From Chloroflexota bacterium (GTDB taxonomy: Bacteria > Chloroflexota > UBA11872 > VXOZ01): 64,000 bases of DNA. The notes beneath the pieces are model-generated. The model was not told the origin of the DNA. It did not search any database and saw nothing but the letters and a program-made list of their open reading frames with translations. Shown piece after piece: positions 23,417-63,226 of this stretch; positions within the stretch are counted from its first letter, which is position 1; the number at the start of each line of letters is the position of its first letter. The stretch lies in the NCBI GenBank assembly GCA_028874195.1, contig JAPPLM010000054.1, positions 1-64,000 on the forward strand. Direction: 5' to 3'. A program made the translations under genes and the position numbers.

Positions 23417-24712
23417 TCAGCGGCCAATGACCGTATCCATACCCACGAGGGGGACGTTGGTGACGAGCGAGGCCTCGAGGCTGAGCGCGCGCAGATCCTC
23501 TGCTTCTAGGTCGTGAACATTGGCCTTGCCGCACGCCCGCGCCAGCAGTTGGATTTCCTGGGTCAACGCGGCGATGAAGTTTGCCATGCGGCGTGCCGCG
23601 TCGGTGAATCCCGGCAAGTCGGCAATTGCCGTGGGGCCGGATTCCCCGCTGTCTTCACCTGCCGCGCATAGGCCTGCGCTATCAGTCGCGCCGTCACCTT
23701 GGGCATTCACGTGCTGCGTCCACGGCTCCAGGGAGTTTAACGCCGCTGTGCCGATGGATACGGCGTTCACGCCCAGGGCCAGCGCCTTGGCGACGTCGGC
23801 GCCGCTGCGAATGCCGCCACAAAGAATCAGGTTAACTTCGTCCTCCAGTCCCAATTCTTCCAAGGCGCGCCGCGCCTGGCACACGGCCGCGATGCCCGGG
23901 ACGCCGGTATTTTGGTTCAATATCGCGGGACCGGTGGAAGCGCCGGCTTCCATACCTTCTACCGTTATGATGTCCGCGCCAGCCTTGGCCGCCAGTTGCA
24001 CGTCGTCATAGACGTGGGCGGCGCTGATCTTTACGATGATGGGTATCCGCCAGTCGGTTGCTTCGCGCAGTTCCTCAACCTTTTTCGGGAGATCGTCTGA
24101 GCCCACCCAATCGGGATGCCGTGTCGGCGCGTGGGAAAGACGCGAATAGGCCGTTTCTGGCAGCGTACCTGCCAACTGCGCTTCTTCTCGACTGTTGCGA
24201 GACGGCATGCCAATACTTGGACTAAGCCCCCGCACGCTCACGAGCTCGATTACGTCGGACTGGAGCATGTGACGCGGATCGAAATCGATGCGGCTTGGCA
24301 GCACTTCATAGGAGAGCATGGTCGCATGCTCCCGCTCGGCCGCCAACATCCCACCGTAACCGGTGGTGTAGAGTGTGCCGGCCCGGGCGGAACCAGAGGC
24401 CAGCGCCGCCCGCACGGCAGGCGACAGTAGCTTGGCGCCCATGCCAGCGATCGTTACCGGGGTGCTGAGCACGAGCGGCTGCGCGGCGAACCGCGTCCCT
24501 AGGGTCGTGGCGGTCGTGCACTGCTCGTAGAAGGCTTCCAGCGGCACGCGGCTGAGCGAGCACGGGATTAGCGTAAGGTCATCGAAGGTTGGAAAACTCC
24601 GGGACCGGCCGGAACGCCCAGCGCCCACGTGCCCGGCGGGAGCATTGATCTTCGCTTCGGCTATTGCCTCAGCGGGTTGGAGCGTGCCCTGCGGGCTTTC
24701 AGGCGCATCCAT
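23417..24712 (-). CDS. Glutamate-synthase-like FMN domain protein (GlxD/MgsC type)
   Basis: The 431-residue protein matches the FMN-binding (alpha/beta barrel) domain of GOGAT. It has LSRVPLEAF, IAGMGAKLLS, YEVLPSRI, HPDWVGSDDLPKKVEELRE, PIIVKISAAHVYDDVQLA, ADIITVEGMEAGAS and CGGIRSGADVAKALALG. The segment where large GltB subunits bind their 3Fe-4S cluster has only one Cys here. I recall a similar loss of the cysteine triad in stand-alone GlxD/MgsC proteins. It is the last gene of a three-gene set in the order amidotransferase, GXGXG, FMN, the order of glxBCD/mgsABC (N-methylglutamate synthase). The reaction is uncertain: glutamate or N-alkylglutamate formation. Confidence 0.8.
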   Translation of the reverse strand: MDAPESPQGTLQPAEAIAEAKINAPAGHVGAGRSGRSRSFPTFDDLTLIPCSLSRVPLEAFYEQCTTATTLGTRFAAQPLVLSTPVTIAGMGAKLLSPAVRAALASGSARAGTLYTTGYGGMLAAEREHATMLSYEVLPSRIDFDPRHMLQSDVIELVSVRGLSPSIGMPSRNSREEAQLAGTLPETAYSRLSHAPTRHPDWVGSDDLPKKVEELREATDWRIPIIVKISAAHVYDDVQLAAKAGADIITVEGMEAGASTGPAILNQNTGVPGIAAVCQARRALEELGLEDEVNLILCGGIRSGADVAKALALGVNAVSIGTAALNSLEPWTQHVNAQGDGATDSAGLCAAGEDSGESGPTAIADLPGFTDAARRMANFIAALTQEIQLLARACGKANVHDLEAEDLRALSLEASLVTNVPLVGMDTVIGR

Positions 24713-24720
24713 ATTCCGTC

Positions 24721-25386
24721 CTAGCCTCCTGTGCGTGGTTCGTCAGCCGCGCCGCGAACGCAAAACTTGCGAAAGGGTCGCGCATGTGAAAGACCCGCGG
24801 TGGCGACGATTCCCTCAATGCGAGCACATTCATCCGATGCCAACTCCGACTCCGCCACACCTTCTCCTAGCTGCTTGACCGCGCCGGCCACATAAATGCG
24901 GCCGCCGTTCATACCGTGCCCCAACCGCTCACTGGCGTTGCCGCATACGATGAGTGCGCCGTCGTGCATCATGAACCCGCTCATGAATCCGACGTTGCCC
25001 CCTATCACCACCATACCACCAACCATGCCGATTCCGGTGCGCGCGGCCGCATTGCCGTGCACACAGACAAGTCCGCCATGAATCGCCGCGCCGGTGGCAT
25101 TGCCCGCGTTGCCGCGTACGACAACGCTGCCGCTCTGAAGGCCTTCACCGGTGCTCCAGCCGGCGCTGCCGTGGATCTCAACCGTCGGCCCATCGCCCAT
25201 GGCGCCGCAATAGTAGCCGACGCTCCCGGCAAAGATAAGGTGCACGGGCTCGAACAACGCCACGCCGAGACTGTGCCGGCCCCGGGGATCGTAGACGTGG
25301 ATGTCTTGTTCGCCCTGCTCGATTGCGTGGCGAATGAGCTGGTTTACTTCCCTTGTGGAACGATCGACAGCCTCGATGAAGAACAT
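24721..25386 (-). CDS. Glutamate-synthase-like GXGXG domain protein (GlxC/MgsB type)
   Basis: This protein of about 221 residues is dominated by a right-handed beta-helix of GXGXG repeats (GNAGNATGAAIHGG, GNAAARTGIGMVGG, GNVGFMSGFMMHDG, GNASERLGHGMNGG). That is the third domain of glutamate synthase alpha subunits, encoded separately. It is structural and couples the amidotransferase and FMN domains. Either ATG 25386 or GTG 25395 could be the start. The gap to the upstream amidotransferase is 0-9 bases and to the downstream FMN gene 8 bases, so the three form one operon and presumably one complex. Confidence 0.82.
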   Translation of the reverse strand: MFFIEAVDRSTREVNQLIRHAIEQGEQDIHVYDPRGRHSLGVALFEPVHLIFAGSVGYYCGAMGDGPTVEIHGSAGWSTGEGLQSGSVVVRGNAGNATGAAIHGGLVCVHGNAAARTGIGMVGGMVVIGGNVGFMSGFMMHDGALIVCGNASERLGHGMNGGRIYVAGAVKQLGEGVAESELASDECARIEGIVATAGLSHARPFRKFCVRGAADEPRTGG

Positions 25387-25395
25387 AGTGACCAC

Positions 25396-26352
25396 TTAGG
25401 GTAAGGCGGTTCGTTCTGGAGCTTCCAAAGGCGCTGGCGTCCGCGTGGGCCAGACGTGCACTTCCTTGGCATCCGGTTCCCACGTGACAAGCTCTTGTTC
25501 CATTCCTTCGCAGATCGCGGCGGCCTCAGAACTCACCGCTACGAATTCGTTCGTTTCTGCGATGACAAGCGGGCGTGCGCCCATCATGTCCTTGGCCGCG
25601 CCAAGTTCCTTGTCGGTTGCCGCTACATAGGCATATGTGCCGTCTAGGAGATGAAGCGACGTGCGCATTGCTTCTTCCAGCGAGGCTCCCTGTTCAATTT
25701 CCATGGCTAGACACGTGCCGACTACTTCCGCGTCATTGGTGGTAAAAAAGCGCTGACCCTGGGCTTCGTACCTACGGCGCAGCTTGTGGTAGTTGGTTAT
25801 CTGTCCGGTATGCGCCACCGCCATATCGGGCCGTGGCCGCGCCCAAAACGGCTGTGAATGGCTCACGTCTACGCGACTCTCCGTGGCAAGCCGGGCCTGG
25901 CCGATCATATGGGTTCCCCGGATCCCGGAGAGATTGTATTCCGCTTCGAGGTGCTCAATAGAACCGACGTCCTTAACGATACTGAGTCGCCGGCCAACGC
26001 TGAAACACTCAACATCACCGCCCTCGCTCATACCCTCAACAATGTCAACTATCCCATGAATGTCTTCGACTCTATCGAGGACGATCTGCAAGGCATGACC
26101 TACCATGCGCGACTTGACGACATTTGCTTTGCGGCCTACCCGCCGCACGACGCGCCCACTCAACGTGCGCACGTCTTCGCCTTCCATTTTCACCGCCACC
26201 AGCACCTGTCCGTACGTCTCCGGCACGAAGAATGCCGCCCCGGTCGAATCCGGTGCATACGGCGAGAGCGAACGCAGCATCTTGAGGGCAATGTCGCCGA
26301 TAGGCGCATACCCATCGCCAACTCGATCAAGGTAGCCGACTACGCCATACAT
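25396..26352 (-). CDS. Class II glutamine amidotransferase-like protein with Tyr at the Cys2 position (GlxB/MgsA type)
   Basis: The 318-residue protein has the class II (Ntn) amidotransferase fold signature, with RLATESRVDVSHSQPFWA, VAHTGQITNYHKLRR, FFTTNDAEVVG and LDGTYAYVAATD. The catalytic residue exposed after Met removal is normally Cys (MCGI...). Here the protein starts MYGVVG, read directly from ATG-TAT-GGC at 26352 down to 26344. With no N-terminal nucleophile, glutaminase activity is unlikely. It heads a three-gene operon with GXGXG and FMN proteins, so the complex may use free ammonia or an amine, as N-methylglutamate synthase does. Confidence 0.78.
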   Translation of the reverse strand: MYGVVGYLDRVGDGYAPIGDIALKMLRSLSPYAPDSTGAAFFVPETYGQVLVAVKMEGEDVRTLSGRVVRRVGRKANVVKSRMVGHALQIVLDRVEDIHGIVDIVEGMSEGGDVECFSVGRRLSIVKDVGSIEHLEAEYNLSGIRGTHMIGQARLATESRVDVSHSQPFWARPRPDMAVAHTGQITNYHKLRRRYEAQGQRFFTTNDAEVVGTCLAMEIEQGASLEEAMRTSLHLLDGTYAYVAATDKELGAAKDMMGARPLVIAETNEFVAVSSEAAAICEGMEQELVTWEPDAKEVHVWPTRTPAPLEAPERTALP

Positions 26353-26493
26353 GACTGCAACCTTTCTCCTTCTATCATACGCCTTTAGGCCAAGTCGTAC
26401 GCCTTCGCCGCTTCAGGCACGCCGAGAACCGGCCCGCAGCATCGGACAAGATTCACAGACGATGGCCGCTAGCGCAAATCCAGCGTTGCATGC

Positions 26494-26674: not shown

Positions 26675-26840
26675 CCGATTCCAGTTGCTTGCGACAATTC
26701 CAACAGCGGGTGGTCAGTGCGCTGACGCACCCGCTTTGTTACTATTGACTTGCTACGAAAAGCAGCGAGCGCTGCCCCCAACCACGGTGCGCTCGCCTGC
26801 CGCACCACAGTCACACTACCCTGCATCAGGGAGGCGAGAC

Positions 26841-29084
26841 GTGGCACGCGCCAACGCAAAGTGGGTCTCGATCGACGTCCGGCCGGAGTCCGGCGCTGAA
26901 CGCGACCGGTGCGAGGTGGCCTTTCACGGCAGAGACGGCAGGACTGACCGAGGCTTGGCGCTCACCCTGCCGGCGGGCAGGGTCGGCACCTGGGAGCTCA
27001 CGGTCACCGTGCGTGAGACGGTGCAGCCCGGCGGCGGCTTCCTCTTCCAGCGCCACGGCTTTCTCCTCGGACACCGCGTCCAAGACTACAATCCGCCAGG
27101 GCGGGACTACGTCACGCTGGAATCGAACACGGCGGCGGGGCTGCGGCTGATTGTGAATTCGCTCAATCAGTCCCACAGACCGAGTTTTGCCCAGGTGATC
27201 GTGACAGACGGCGCGCTCGCGCCGGGCGACCGCTTCACCTTGCGGATTGGCGGCCGGCGGCAGGGCGGCGCTGGCAGTGAGGTCTACGATGCGACGACCT
27301 TGGGCCGTTTCGTAATTGCCGTAGATCGCACCGGCAGCGGTACCTACCGCACGCTGGCGTGCAGCCCGGCGACTGTGCGCATCACTGCGGAACCCCACGC
27401 AGACCTGCTGCGTGTGCTCGGCCCTTCCGTGGTCGCGCCGGACGAACCGTTTGCCCTCCACCTTATTGCCTTCGACCGGCATCGCAACGTGTGCGACCGG
27501 TACCGGGGAACGGTTACGCTCTCCTGCCCCAATGGATCAAGCGACGTGCTCCCGCCAACGGTCTCATTCACCGCGCGGGAACAAGGAGTTCTCGTCATCG
27601 ATGACGTACGCCTTACGTCACCCGGGCTTTACCGCTTCACCGCCACGGACGAGGAGACCGGCCTACAGGCGCTGAGCAACCCCACCCTCTGTGAGGCTGC
27701 CCCTAAGAGGCGCCTCTACTGGGGCGAGTTGCATTGCCATAGCTGGGGGGATACGACGCTCTCGCTGATGAGCGAACCGAACTTCAAAGTGCACCCCGCC
27801 CGGCGGCATGAGCAGGCCCGGCAGGTGGGACGGTTGGATTTTTGCTCCCCGGGTCCAATGTCCGCGCCCAATGACGAAGACCGTCCCGAGGTCTGGCAGG
27901 CGCACCAAGACGCGTTCCGCGCCAACGACGAGCCGGGCACGTACGTGCCATTCTTAGCCTACGAAGCGCATCCCGGCAGGGGCGGCGACCGCAATGTCGT
28001 GTTCTACGCCCAAGAGGAAACCCATTTGCCGATGAAAGCGTCCATGGACGACGTTATGGCGACGTATGGCGGGCGCGCTGACGCACTCCTGGAAGCCCAC
28101 ATCGGCGGCGGTCCGCCCAACTGGACGGCCTACCCCACTGAGGAAGCGCCGCTGCTGGAGGTCACCAGCGGGCACGGGGCTTTCGAGTGGGTGCTGCAAC
28201 GGGCGCTGCGCCACGGCTACCATCCCGCAGTAATCGGCTCCAGCGACGTCCACCTGCCGACTCTCGGCGCACCCATGTCGGCCCACTGCTTCCGGGGACG
28301 CTTCAACCACGAACTCAATATCCGCGACACGGCCTTCGGCAGCGGCCAGGTGGCCGGGGTCTACGCGCCAGCCTGCGAGCGGGAGGCAATCTGGCAGGCG
28401 ATCCAGGACCGGCGCACGTTTGCTACGACCGGCGCGCGCATCATACTTGACGTGAGCGCGAATAGAGAACCGGCCGGCAGCCTTGTCACGTCGTCCGGAG
28501 ACGTAGATTTGCGCATTGTCGCGCACGGCTGTGCGCCAATCGAGCGGATGGACCTGATCCGCGGCGACCGCTGCTTGCTTTCCTGGTTTCCCGGTGAGCT
28601 TGACTCGTCTATCGGCTACACCGACACCCGACCCCTGCGCACAGGCGCCTACTACGTGCGCCTGCGTCAGGCCGACGGCGAGTATGCCTGGAGCACGCCG
28701 GTCTGGGTGACCTGTAACGAGGGTAGTGACACGCCTGATCCCACCCTGCCGCTCTGGAACGCCCACGAGCCGATTAACCTGACAACCCTACGCCCCAATG
28801 CGGCAGAACAATACGAGGCCGCTCTGCTGGAATACCTGGAAATCGAGGAAGACCCGGCACTCTTTCGCGACTTAACGCCGGTAAAACTCCTGGAGGAAGC
28901 TCCCGGACGCTCAGCGCTGTTCTACGCCTTCTACGCTGCCGACGGCTGGCCGGTGAGCATCCGCTGGTACTACGAGTTCGACCTGCCGCGCATCCACGTG
29001 GACTGGGGCTGGCGCGACTTCGGCGCGCGCCCTACGCCTACCAACATCACCGAACCGGCGGAAGAGAAACCGCCTTTAGCCTAA
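26841..29084 (+). CDS. DUF3604 (PHP-like) metal-dependent hydrolase
   Basis: The protein is about 747 residues from GTG 26841. That start is preceded by AGGGAGG with 6-base spacing; the open frame extends further upstream without a ribosome site. The N-terminal half (1-290) holds beta-rich domains. From about 292 comes the DUF3604 core: LYWGELHCHSWGD (histidine metal ligands near 298-300), RLDFCSPGPMS, LLEAHIGGGPPNW, and IGSSDVHLPTLG (Asp-His). Family members are predicted phosphatase- or esterase-like enzymes of unknown substrate, common in marine and host-associated bacteria. No signal peptide is evident at this start. It stands between tRNA-Thr and an alpha/beta hydrolase. Confidence 0.85.
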   Translation: MARANAKWVSIDVRPESGAERDRCEVAFHGRDGRTDRGLALTLPAGRVGTWELTVTVRETVQPGGGFLFQRHGFLLGHRVQDYNPPGRDYVTLESNTAAGLRLIVNSLNQSHRPSFAQVIVTDGALAPGDRFTLRIGGRRQGGAGSEVYDATTLGRFVIAVDRTGSGTYRTLACSPATVRITAEPHADLLRVLGPSVVAPDEPFALHLIAFDRHRNVCDRYRGTVTLSCPNGSSDVLPPTVSFTAREQGVLVIDDVRLTSPGLYRFTATDEETGLQALSNPTLCEAAPKRRLYWGELHCHSWGDTTLSLMSEPNFKVHPARRHEQARQVGRLDFCSPGPMSAPNDEDRPEVWQAHQDAFRANDEPGTYVPFLAYEAHPGRGGDRNVVFYAQEETHLPMKASMDDVMATYGGRADALLEAHIGGGPPNWTAYPTEEAPLLEVTSGHGAFEWVLQRALRHGYHPAVIGSSDVHLPTLGAPMSAHCFRGRFNHELNIRDTAFGSGQVAGVYAPACEREAIWQAIQDRRTFATTGARIILDVSANREPAGSLVTSSGDVDLRIVAHGCAPIERMDLIRGDRCLLSWFPGELDSSIGYTDTRPLRTGAYYVRLRQADGEYAWSTPVWVTCNEGSDTPDPTLPLWNAHEPINLTTLRPNAAEQYEAALLEYLEIEEDPALFRDLTPVKLLEEAPGRSALFYAFYAADGWPVSIRWYYEFDLPRIHVDWGWRDFGARPTPTNITEPAEEKPPLA

Positions 29085-60080: not shown

Positions 60081-60764
60081 GTGAGTCCCCTGTTCGATAA
60101 GTATACGGATCAAGCAAAGCGGGTGCTCATGTTTGCGCAGGAAGAATCGCGCCGCTTCAACCATGACTATATCGGCACCGAGCATTTGCTCCTCGGCTTG
60201 GTGCGCGAAAACAAAGGGCCGGCCGCGAGGGTGCTCAACGGTATGGGCGTGGACCTCGCCAAAGTGCGCAGCGCCGTAGAGTTCATCGTTGGGCACGGCG
60301 AGCGCGCGGAAGTTGGGGACATCAGCCTGACTGCGCATGCAAGGAAAGTTATCGAGCTAGCGGCTGAAGAGTCGCACCGGTTGGGGCAGGACTACATTGG
60401 CACCGAACATATCCTGTTGGGTATTGTAACCGAAGGCGAAGGGATGGCGACAGGCATCTTGGAGAGCTTGGGCGCGCACCCTCCGGCAGTACGCAGCGTG
60501 ATAGAGGTTGCCGCAAAACCGGGAAAGCGCATTGACGACGAAGCCAGATTAGGCTTTACCCCGGGCGCCAACAAAGCACTGGGGCTTGCGGCTGAAGAGG
60601 CGCGCCAGTTGGGGCACAGCGAAATTGGCACCGGACACCTGCTCTTGGGACTCGCGCGTGAAGGCAATGGGCTGGCAGCGGGTGAATTGCAGGGTCTCGG
60701 CGTGGACGTGCAAAGAGTGCGGCAACAGGTTAGACAAGCGGTGAGCCAAGGAGAAGCGTCGTGA
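60081..60764 (+). CDS. Stand-alone Clp-N repeat protein, coupled to clpC
   Basis: The 227-residue protein consists only of Clp N-terminal repeats: KYTDQAKRVLMFAQEESRRF with [14 protein letters not shown], then KVIELAAEESHRLG with YIGTEHILLGIV, then a third, more divergent one (KALGLAAEEARQLG, IGTGHLLLGLA). Three repeats amount to one and a half N-domains. There is no AAA module. The first 50 or so bases are nearly identical to the clpC start, indicating duplication. Its stop overlaps the clpC GTG (GTGA), so it is made with ClpC. A likely adaptor or substrate-binding modulator of ClpC; this is inference. Confidence 0.85.
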   Translation: MSPLFDKYTDQAKRVLMFAQEESRRFNHDYIGTEHLLLGLVRENKGPAARVLNGMGVDLAKVRSAVEFIVGHGERAEVGDISLTAHARKVIELAAEESHRLGQDYIGTEHILLGIVTEGEGMATGILESLGAHPPAVRSVIEVAAKPGKRIDDEARLGFTPGANKALGLAAEEARQLGHSEIGTGHLLLGLAREGNGLAAGELQGLGVDVQRVRQQVRQAVSQGEAS

Positions 60765-63226
60765 GTCCCCTGTTCGATAAATACACGGACCGAGCGAAGC
60801 GGGTGCTCATGCTTGCGCAGGAAGAGGCGCGCCGCTTCAACCACAACTACATCGGCACCGAGCACTTGCTCCTTGGTTTGGTGCGCGAAGGCGAGGGCAT
60901 CGCCGCGAAGGTGCTCTACGACATGGGCGTAGACCTCACGAAAGTGCGCAGCGCCGTGGAGTTCATCATCGGCCGGGGCGAGCGCGTAAACGTCGGCGAC
61001 ATCAGCCTCACGCCACGCGCCAAGAAAGTCATCGAGCTTGCCAACGAAGAGGCGCGACGCTTGGGGCACAACTACATCGGCACCGAGCACCTGCTTCTCG
61101 GCCTGGTGCGCGAAGGTGAAGGCATCGCCGCAGGGGTCTTGGAAAGCCTGGGCGTGAGCCTGGAGAAGGTGCGGCAGAAGGTCATCCAATCGGTGAGCCA
61201 GCAGCCCTCGCGCGTGCCGCAAGAGGGCAGCGGCCGCCAGTCTTCCTCGCGCACGCCGTTGATCGACCAGATGGGCATCGATCTCACGGCGGCGGCCCGC
61301 GCGGAAAAGCTCGATCCGGTGATCGGACGCCAACAAGAGATCGAACGTGTGGTGCAAATACTTTCGCGCCGCACGAAGAACAATCCGGCCCTCATCGGCG
61401 AACCCGGCGTCGGCAAGACGGCGATTGTGGAAGGGCTGGCGCAACGGGTCGTGACGGGAGACGTGCCGGAGACGCTCCTTGGCAAGCGGCTGCTTACCCT
61501 CGACATCGGCGCGCTGGTCGCCGGTACGAAGTATCGCGGTGAATTCGAGGAGCGTCTCAAGAAGATCCTCGAAGAGATCCGCGGTTCCGGCGACTGCATG
61601 CTCTTCATCGACGAACTCCATACGCTCGTTGGCGCAGGCGCGGCGGAAGGCGCGGTGGATGCCGCCAATATCCTCAAGCCGGCTCTGGCGCGGGGCGAAC
61701 TGCAATGCATCGGCGCTACGACGCTGGACGAGTACCGCAAGTACATCGAGCGTGACGCGGCCCTAGAGCGCCGCTTCCAGCCCGTGCACGTGCGCGAGCT
61801 CGACATTGAGGAGACAATCGCGGTGCTCCAAGGCGTCAAGGAACGCTATGAGGAACACCACAAAGTGCATATCATCGACGAAGCCGTCAAGGTGGCGGCG
61901 GAGATGTCCGGCCGCTACGTGACCGACCGCTTCCTGCCGGACAAGGCCATCGACTTGATCGATGAGGCGGCTTCCCGCGTACGCATCCAACAGGCCAACA
62001 CCTCCAATGCGCTGCGCAACGCCGTGAAAGACCTGGACGGCATCGTGCGCGAAAAAGAGGACGCCATCGAGAGCCGCCAGTACGACGAGGCGGTGGGCCT
62101 CGGCGAAAAAGAGGCTGAACTGCGCAAGAAGATCGAAGACCTCGAATCGGACTGGCCGAACAAGGAAGAAAAGTGGCCCGAGGTTACGAAAGAAGACGTG
62201 GCGACGGTGGTCTCCATGTGGACGGGCATCCCGGTGACGCGCATTGCCCAGGAGGAATCGGAACGACTGCTCCACATGGAAGAGAACCTGCACGAGAAGG
62301 TGGTGAGCCAGGAAGAAGCCATCAGCAACGTCTCCAAGGCCGTGCGGCGGGCGCGTGCCGGTCTCAAAGACCCCAAGCGGCCCATCGGTTCGTTCATCTT
62401 TGTGGGCCCCACCGGCTCCGGCAAGACCTACCTCGCCCGGGCGCTGGCGGAGTTCATGTTTGGCAGCAGCGACGCCATGGTCCGGCTCGACATGTCGGAA
62501 TACATGGAGAAGCACACGATCTCGCGCCTGGTCGGCGCGCCGCCGGGCTACGTGGGCTATGAAGAAGGCGGCCAACTCACCGAGGCGGTGCGGCGGCGCA
62601 GCTACTCCGTGGTGCTCTTGGACGAGATTGAGAAGGCGCACCCCGACGTCTTCAACGTGCTGCTCCAGATCATGGAGGACGGTCGGCTCACCGACGGCAA
62701 GGGCCGCACGGTGGACTTCCGCAATACGATCCTCATCATGACCTCGAACGTGGGCGCGCACCTCATCAAGCGCGACGCCGCCGTCGGCTTCCGGCTGGAG
62801 GCGACCGACCTGCGCACCGAGGGGCAACTCTACAAAGAGATGCGGGAACGCGTGATGGCGGAAATCAAGAAGACGTTCCGGCCTGAGTTCCTCAATCGCG
62901 TGGACAGCGTGGTGGTCTTCCGGCACTTGTCGAAAGAGGACATCATCAACATCGTTGACATTCAACTCGACGAAGTGCGGGCGCGCCTCACCGAGCAGGA
63001 GATTACGCTGGAAGTTACCGACGATGCGAAAGAACTGCTCGTGGAGCAAGGCTATGACCCCGATAACGGCGCCCGACCCCTGCGACGGGTAATCCAAAAC
63101 CTGATCGAGAATGAACTCGCGGAAGGCCTGCTGGCGGAGAAATTCCACGCCGGCGATACCATAACGGTAGAGCGCGACGGTGAGGAATTGCGGTTGGAAG
63201 TGCGGGTGCTGGTGGAGCAGACCTAG
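60761..63226 (+). CDS. clpC: ATP-dependent Clp protease ATPase subunit ClpC
   Basis: The 821-residue class I HSP100 unfoldase feeds substrates to ClpP. An N-domain with two repeats (1-145) comes first. AAA1 follows, with Walker A GEPGVGKT (about 213) and Walker [10 protein letters not shown]. The middle coiled domain of ClpC length lies at about 410-475. AAA2 has GPTGSGKT (about 549) and [14 protein letters not shown] in the AAA2 loop is a ClpP-docking type tripeptide. The C-terminal D2 small domain ends [20 protein letters not shown]. The GTG start overlaps the preceding Clp-N gene by four bases. No clpP is in the window. Confidence 0.96.

Follow-up and report, generated by a model that had tools for sequence, protein, structure and literature searches.

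Glutamate synthases are a textbook case of coupled active sites, with their ammonia tunnel and Fe-S wire. On the minus strand of the window, by which is meant the whole 64,000-nucleotide stretch of Chloroflexota DNA analysed here, there is a glutamate synthase-like operon at 23417–26352 in which the amidotransferase gene starts ATG-TAT-GGC, placing Tyr where the N-terminal nucleophile Cys is expected. The question raised by this locus is what such a complex, referred to here as the Tyr operon, might be kept for. The observation itself is correct, and it is stronger than the first-pass annotation had stated, in that an Arg and an Asn have been lost too. The reaction centres are lost yet the genes have been carefully preserved, and the second, disarmed copy in this small group of reef-type Chloroflexota therefore probably does a different job.

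Operon layout and the second codon

The proposal that three adjacent genes encode an amidotransferase, a GXGXG protein, and an FMN protein in glxBCD/mgsABC order is borne out by the open reading frames and by Pfam; the genes are separated by 0–8 bases.

25396..26352, minus strand: pseudo-amidotransferase subunit (GlxB/MgsA-like, 318 aa, P0001), Pfam GATase_7 6e-18, also GATase_6
24721..25395, minus strand: GXGXG subunit (GlxC/MgsB-like, 224 aa, P0002), Pfam GXGXG 4e-17
23417..24712, minus strand: FMN-domain subunit (GlxD/MgsC-like, 431 aa, P0003), Pfam Glu_synthase 8e-45
26361..26371, minus strand: Shine-Dalgarno-like AAGGAGAAAGG 5' of the amidotransferase ATG, from the sequence
26347..26349, minus strand: TAT codon, Tyr2 replacing the nucleophile Cys, which 81/81 canonical homologues have; Tyr wherever the genus can be read (5/5)

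Purine-rich stretches containing AGG are found in the sister species at the position matching the Shine-Dalgarno-like site. Upstream of the operon, on the other strand, are a tRNA-Thr and a CehA/McbA-like (DUF3604) metallohydrolase gene (26685–29084), which is divergent from the operon across the tRNA-Thr and keeps this position in the four sister genomes in which the stretch can be read. Among the neighbours of the Tyr operon, no gene points to a substrate. Elsewhere in the window, at 60081–63226, are tandem ORFs of 227 and 821 aa with near-identical ClpC-like starts and a shared stretch including (Q/R)AKRVLM, where the 227-aa ORF appears to repeat, in short form, the N-terminal region of the 821-aa ClpC-like ORF.

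The second codon of the amidotransferase gene is TAY in all five of the species in which it can be read, the starts being ATG-TAT in the window, GTG-TAC in one species, and GTG-TAT in three. An alternative start upstream, giving Cys2, was considered and is ruled out by the stop-bounded frames: in L007, L008, and L009 there is one in-frame codon between the upstream stop and the GTG, and in L112 there are just six codons in this interval, none of them a start, so that any other N-terminus is excluded in those species. The first-pass annotation had asked whether Tyr2 is common to a clade within the GlxB/MgsA alignment; it is genus-wide, and Cys2 is present at every canonical start read, which rules out Tyr2 as a trait of the GlxB/MgsA family. 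That the Tyr codon is an artefact of sequencing, assembly, or start-codon choice is refuted, since it recurs in five separate genomes, one of them on a 200-kb contig and several with stop-bounded starts, and no support for an artefact at codon 2 was found. A bulky second residue such as Tyr normally blocks removal of the initiator Met, and therefore no free N-terminal nucleophile would form.

Residues lost and kept in the subunits

The five Tyr amidotransferases were aligned with 81 canonical homologues, comprising paralogues from the same genus and named loci, drawn from Chloroflexota, Binatota, Acidobacteriota, Poribacteria, Pseudomonadota, and others. There are 69 columns at least 97% conserved in the canonical proteins; at 11 of them the conserved residue is absent from every one of the five Tyr proteins, and these 11 include Cys2 and the columns of the following residues.

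26254..26259, minus strand: residues 32–33, Arg-Gly of RGPDS (GlmS R26-G27 column) replaced by Tyr/His-Ala; R and G in 81/81 canonical, 0/5 here
25807..25809, minus strand: residue 182, oxyanion-hole Asn (GlmS N98 column) replaced by Thr, or by Ala in one species; N in 81/81 canonical, T in four and A in one here

The HNG motif thus reads HTG or HAG in the Tyr clade. By our own arithmetic, the chance that the Cys, the Arg, and the Asn would all fall among 11 columns lost at random from 69 is approximately 0.003. The glutamine-recognition columns (GlmS R73, T76, D123, and G99) are all kept, which is suggestive at most, because 58 of the 69 conserved columns stay anyway. The AF2 model of the subunit (pLDDT 87.8) has the class II (Ntn) amidotransferase fold, with glutamate synthase 1ofd as its closest match (TM 0.70) and further matches to GlmS and PurF, although the catalytic Cys at the mature N-terminus that characterizes this class is replaced here by Tyr2. 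In AsnH/AsnB proteins, Cys2, the HNG Asn, and adjacent residues are essential for glutaminase activity (PMC3885529), and studies of Arg30 and Asn74 of E. coli AsnB are among the work that this paper cites. The joint loss of Cys, Arg, and Asn, with Tyr2 present throughout the genus, supports the earlier claim, made from Tyr2, that the complex should not use glutamine; no hydrolysis of this substrate is expected of it. The GXGXG subunit, aligned with its canonical homologues, has lost 10 of 46 conserved columns.

For the FMN subunit, six Tyr-operon proteins were aligned with 79 canonical homologues.

24221..24232, minus strand: residues 161–164, Q and K of QGxKxG replaced by Arg and Ser; Q and K in 79/79 canonical, R and S fixed in 6/6 here
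23801..23818, minus strand: residues 299–304, GGIRSG, presumed FMN phosphate-binding motif, retained; G299, G300, R302, and G304 in the canonical proteins and in 6/6 here
23609..23728, minus strand: residues 329–368, variable low-complexity loop at the site of the Fe-S motif C-x2-C-x4-C-P; three Cys in 79/79 canonical, 0/6 here

The protein in the window does have a single Cys in the former Fe-S loop, as had been noticed at first reading, and this Cys varies among the sister species. The accompanying statement that GlxD/MgsC proteins are similarly short of these cysteines was wrong; all 79 canonical proteins keep the three, so their absence is ruled out as a trait of the family. There is a Met for one Fe-S cysteine (CFHMHTGRCP) in an otherwise canonical glxBCD/mgsABC locus of another Chloroflexota genome (L155, G236:C188), where Cys2, HNG, and QGxKxG are intact.

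The QGxKxG site, which is QGxKxG also in A. brasilense GltS, reads RGxSxS in all six Tyr-operon proteins. Its Q and K probably correspond to ligands of 2-oxoglutarate; lists of GltS 2-oxoglutarate ligands were sought in the open-access literature, and nothing usable was found. GGIRSG, a motif that binds the FMN phosphate in FMN barrels, is kept alongside the conserved Lys K228 and the IGT strand (I320, G321) in 6/6. The six proteins of the Tyr clade agree at 172 of 252 barrel columns and at only four of 40 columns of the former Fe-S loop. At 31 barrel positions the Tyr clade has lost a residue that never varies in the canonical proteins; at 21 of these all six species share one new residue, as against none of 12 in the loop, so that the barrel pocket looks rebuilt and the loop discarded, rather than both being subject to general decay. 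The best fold matches of the AF2 model of this subunit are GltS, followed by FMN hydroxyacid oxidases. Because the model has a pLDDT of 66.6, falling below 50 in the rebuilt loop at 162–198, the oxidase matches show a shared barrel only, and reading of the pocket from the model was abandoned. In glutamate synthase, electrons reach the FMN by way of the 3Fe-4S cluster as the final step, and 2-oxoglutarate binds in front of the flavin (PMC8097209).

The intact paralogue, distribution, and selection

An intact canonical copy is present elsewhere in the same genome (G000:C31), with MCG, RGPDS, GHTR, HNG, the Fe-S motif, and QGxKxG. Its 3' neighbours are SoxD-, SoxA-, and SoxG-type genes, a DAO/SoxB-type gene, and a type III glutamine synthetase (TIGR03105, 603 bits), which is the layout expected of the N-methylglutamate (NMG) pathway mgsABC-mgd-gmaS (PMC6237917), and the same cluster accompanies the intact paralogue in four sister genomes. 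The suggestion that gmaS and N-methylglutamate dehydrogenase genes be looked for in this genome is therefore answered positively, but the genes adjoin the intact mgsABC, and no gmaS or sox-type match was found around the Tyr operon. Between mgsC and the SoxD gene there is an AAA/RecF-like ATPase gene in genomes G000 and G202 (L120:7163-8461, L130:7139-8434), which was not found at this position in G033, G077, and G117.

The genome also has a full-length-type GltB (1542-aa frame) and, as a second glutamine synthetase besides the type III (gmaS-like) enzyme, one that is type II-like (G000:C67:29538-29975, L148), and ammonia assimilation would therefore be independent of the Tyr operon. A third, type I GlnA-like glutamine synthetase was sought in the genus and not found.

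The genus is represented by six genomes, which also make up the whole family as sampled. The Tyr operon is present in all six, at a syntenic place, with the FMN gene in 6/6 and a readable amidotransferase gene in 5/6, the contig of the sixth stopping within the operon. Both the intact and the Tyr copies occur together in all five well-assembled genomes, and pieces of both are present in the incomplete sixth. Searching 400 Chloroflexota genomes with the Tyr FMN profile gave 855–899 bits in the six genus genomes and no more than 461 bits elsewhere; no disarmed form was found in other genera among these 400, and those of the best outside matches that were read are canonical, as are the loci of G365 and G394, at first apparent non-matches. 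A scan of named genomes gave canonical loci only, among the matches listed, and a search of the literature for disarmed GOGAT or GlxBCD found nothing usable.

In the concatenated tree the Tyr clade is on a very long branch, of approximately 1.9–2.1 changes per site. A sister relation to the intact copy of the genus, and with it a recent duplication of that copy, is rejected by the AU test (p = 0.0035 without Pseudomonadota, 5e-5 with Pseudomonadota), subject to the caution that long-branch attraction is possible. Pairwise dN/dS of the three Tyr-operon genes is 0.06–0.18, equal to or lower than the 0.09–0.34 obtained in the same way for flanking genes, these values being rough because dS is near saturation. 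The FMN subunit has a ratio of about 0.1, as against about 0.02 for its intact paralogue, an approximately four- to sixfold faster rate of change. On these ratios the Tyr operon is under purifying selection, being constrained rather than decaying.

Possible functions and known systems

Taken as a whole, the evidence gives roughly an even chance that the Tyr operon is a neofunctionalised paralogue of MgsABC/GlxBCD, a putative Fe-S-independent flavoprotein confined, as far as searched, to one genus of Chloroflexota. The three proteins would form an FMN-containing complex, with the pseudo-amidotransferase and GXGXG subunits as a scaffold or as a ligand-binding cap. Deprived of the cluster that usually supplies the FMN with electrons, the flavin would have to trade them with a small substrate or acceptor directly, in the manner of the hydroxyacid oxidases, and the substrate would differ from 2-oxoglutarate with ammonia taken from glutamine. 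As to the reaction, our leading guess is an Fe-S-independent FMN oxidoreductase. More tentatively, and with a little less confidence than the paralogue reading itself, this may be an undescribed three-subunit FMN enzyme catalysing a new Fe-S-independent redox reaction, in which the inactive amidotransferase would have a structural or sensing role.

The main rival is that the disarmed subunits are a regulatory pseudoenzyme, joining or titrating the intact MgsABC and sensing glutamine, glutamate, or an amine. The coexistence of the two copies across the genus and the kept recognition columns would be in keeping with this, but retention of those four residues is plausible by chance, the Tyr operon is unlinked to the NMG cluster, and keeping all three subunits with an FMN pocket remodelled with fixed residues would be needless for titrating a partner, which makes regulation unlikely. 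The route proposed in the first-pass annotation, in which free ammonia or methylamine would replace glutamine in making glutamate or N-methylglutamate, is less likely still. Loss of glutaminase would leave just such an ammonia- or amine-dependent synthase, and mgsABC without GMAS made some N-methylglutamate in Pseudomonas putida (PMC6237917). This synthesis is nevertheless unsupported here, for two reasons: glutamate synthase reduces its FMN through an Fe-S cluster (PMC8097209) whose ligands the Tyr operon has lost, and none of the six species retains QGxKxG, which GltS and every canonical MgsC share. Since the intact copy elsewhere in the genome already fills the NMG pathway, a job other than NMG synthesis is favoured. 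That the operon is functionless and decaying would fit the loss of several catalytic features and the faster evolution of the FMN subunit, but every readable ORF is intact, gene order around it is conserved, more than two-thirds of the barrel columns are invariant, and the neighbouring genes have dN/dS values at least as high; this has very little probability.

The nucleophile, the oxyanion hole, the cluster, and QGxKxG have been removed jointly from a three-protein complex that is still preserved, with an intact copy in the same cell, making the Tyr operon a natural dissection of the parts that the scaffold needs. The case also cautions that annotation of glxBCD/mgsABC by itself proves neither methylamine use nor ammonia assimilation in Chloroflexota genomes.

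The canonical MgsABC/GlxBCD complexes (GlxB-type amidotransferase, GltB3-like GXGXG, and GltB2-like FMN subunits) share with the Tyr operon three separate subunits in identical gene order, at 38–48% identity for the FMN subunit (47% to the intact paralogue of its own genome) and 43% for the amidotransferase against that same genome's intact copy. All of those read keep the Cys2, Arg, HNG, and QGxKxG, and all 79 in the FMN-subunit alignment keep the Fe-S cysteines; none of these features is kept in the Tyr operon, which is also without gmaS/mgd neighbours. The glutamate synthase alpha subunit (GltB, e.g. 1ofd and 1ea0) has the same three domains, and the amidotransferase resembles it in fold, but GltB has Cys1, the 3Fe-4S cluster, and a 2-oxoglutarate site, none of which is recognisable here. 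With FMN alpha-hydroxyacid oxidases and lactate monooxygenase, the second-best fold matches of the low-confidence model, the predicted likeness is of an FMN TIM barrel without Fe-S, at approximately 15–20% identity, and is of the barrel fold alone. The closest precedent for keeping a dead class II amidotransferase is beta-lactam synthetase (its structure paper is among the references of PMC3885529), a member of the asparagine synthetase family with a disabled amidotransferase domain, which has been kept after loss of glutaminase activity in a repurposed enzyme; the partner there is a different, synthetase domain, whereas in the Tyr operon the FMN/Fe-S partner has been stripped too.
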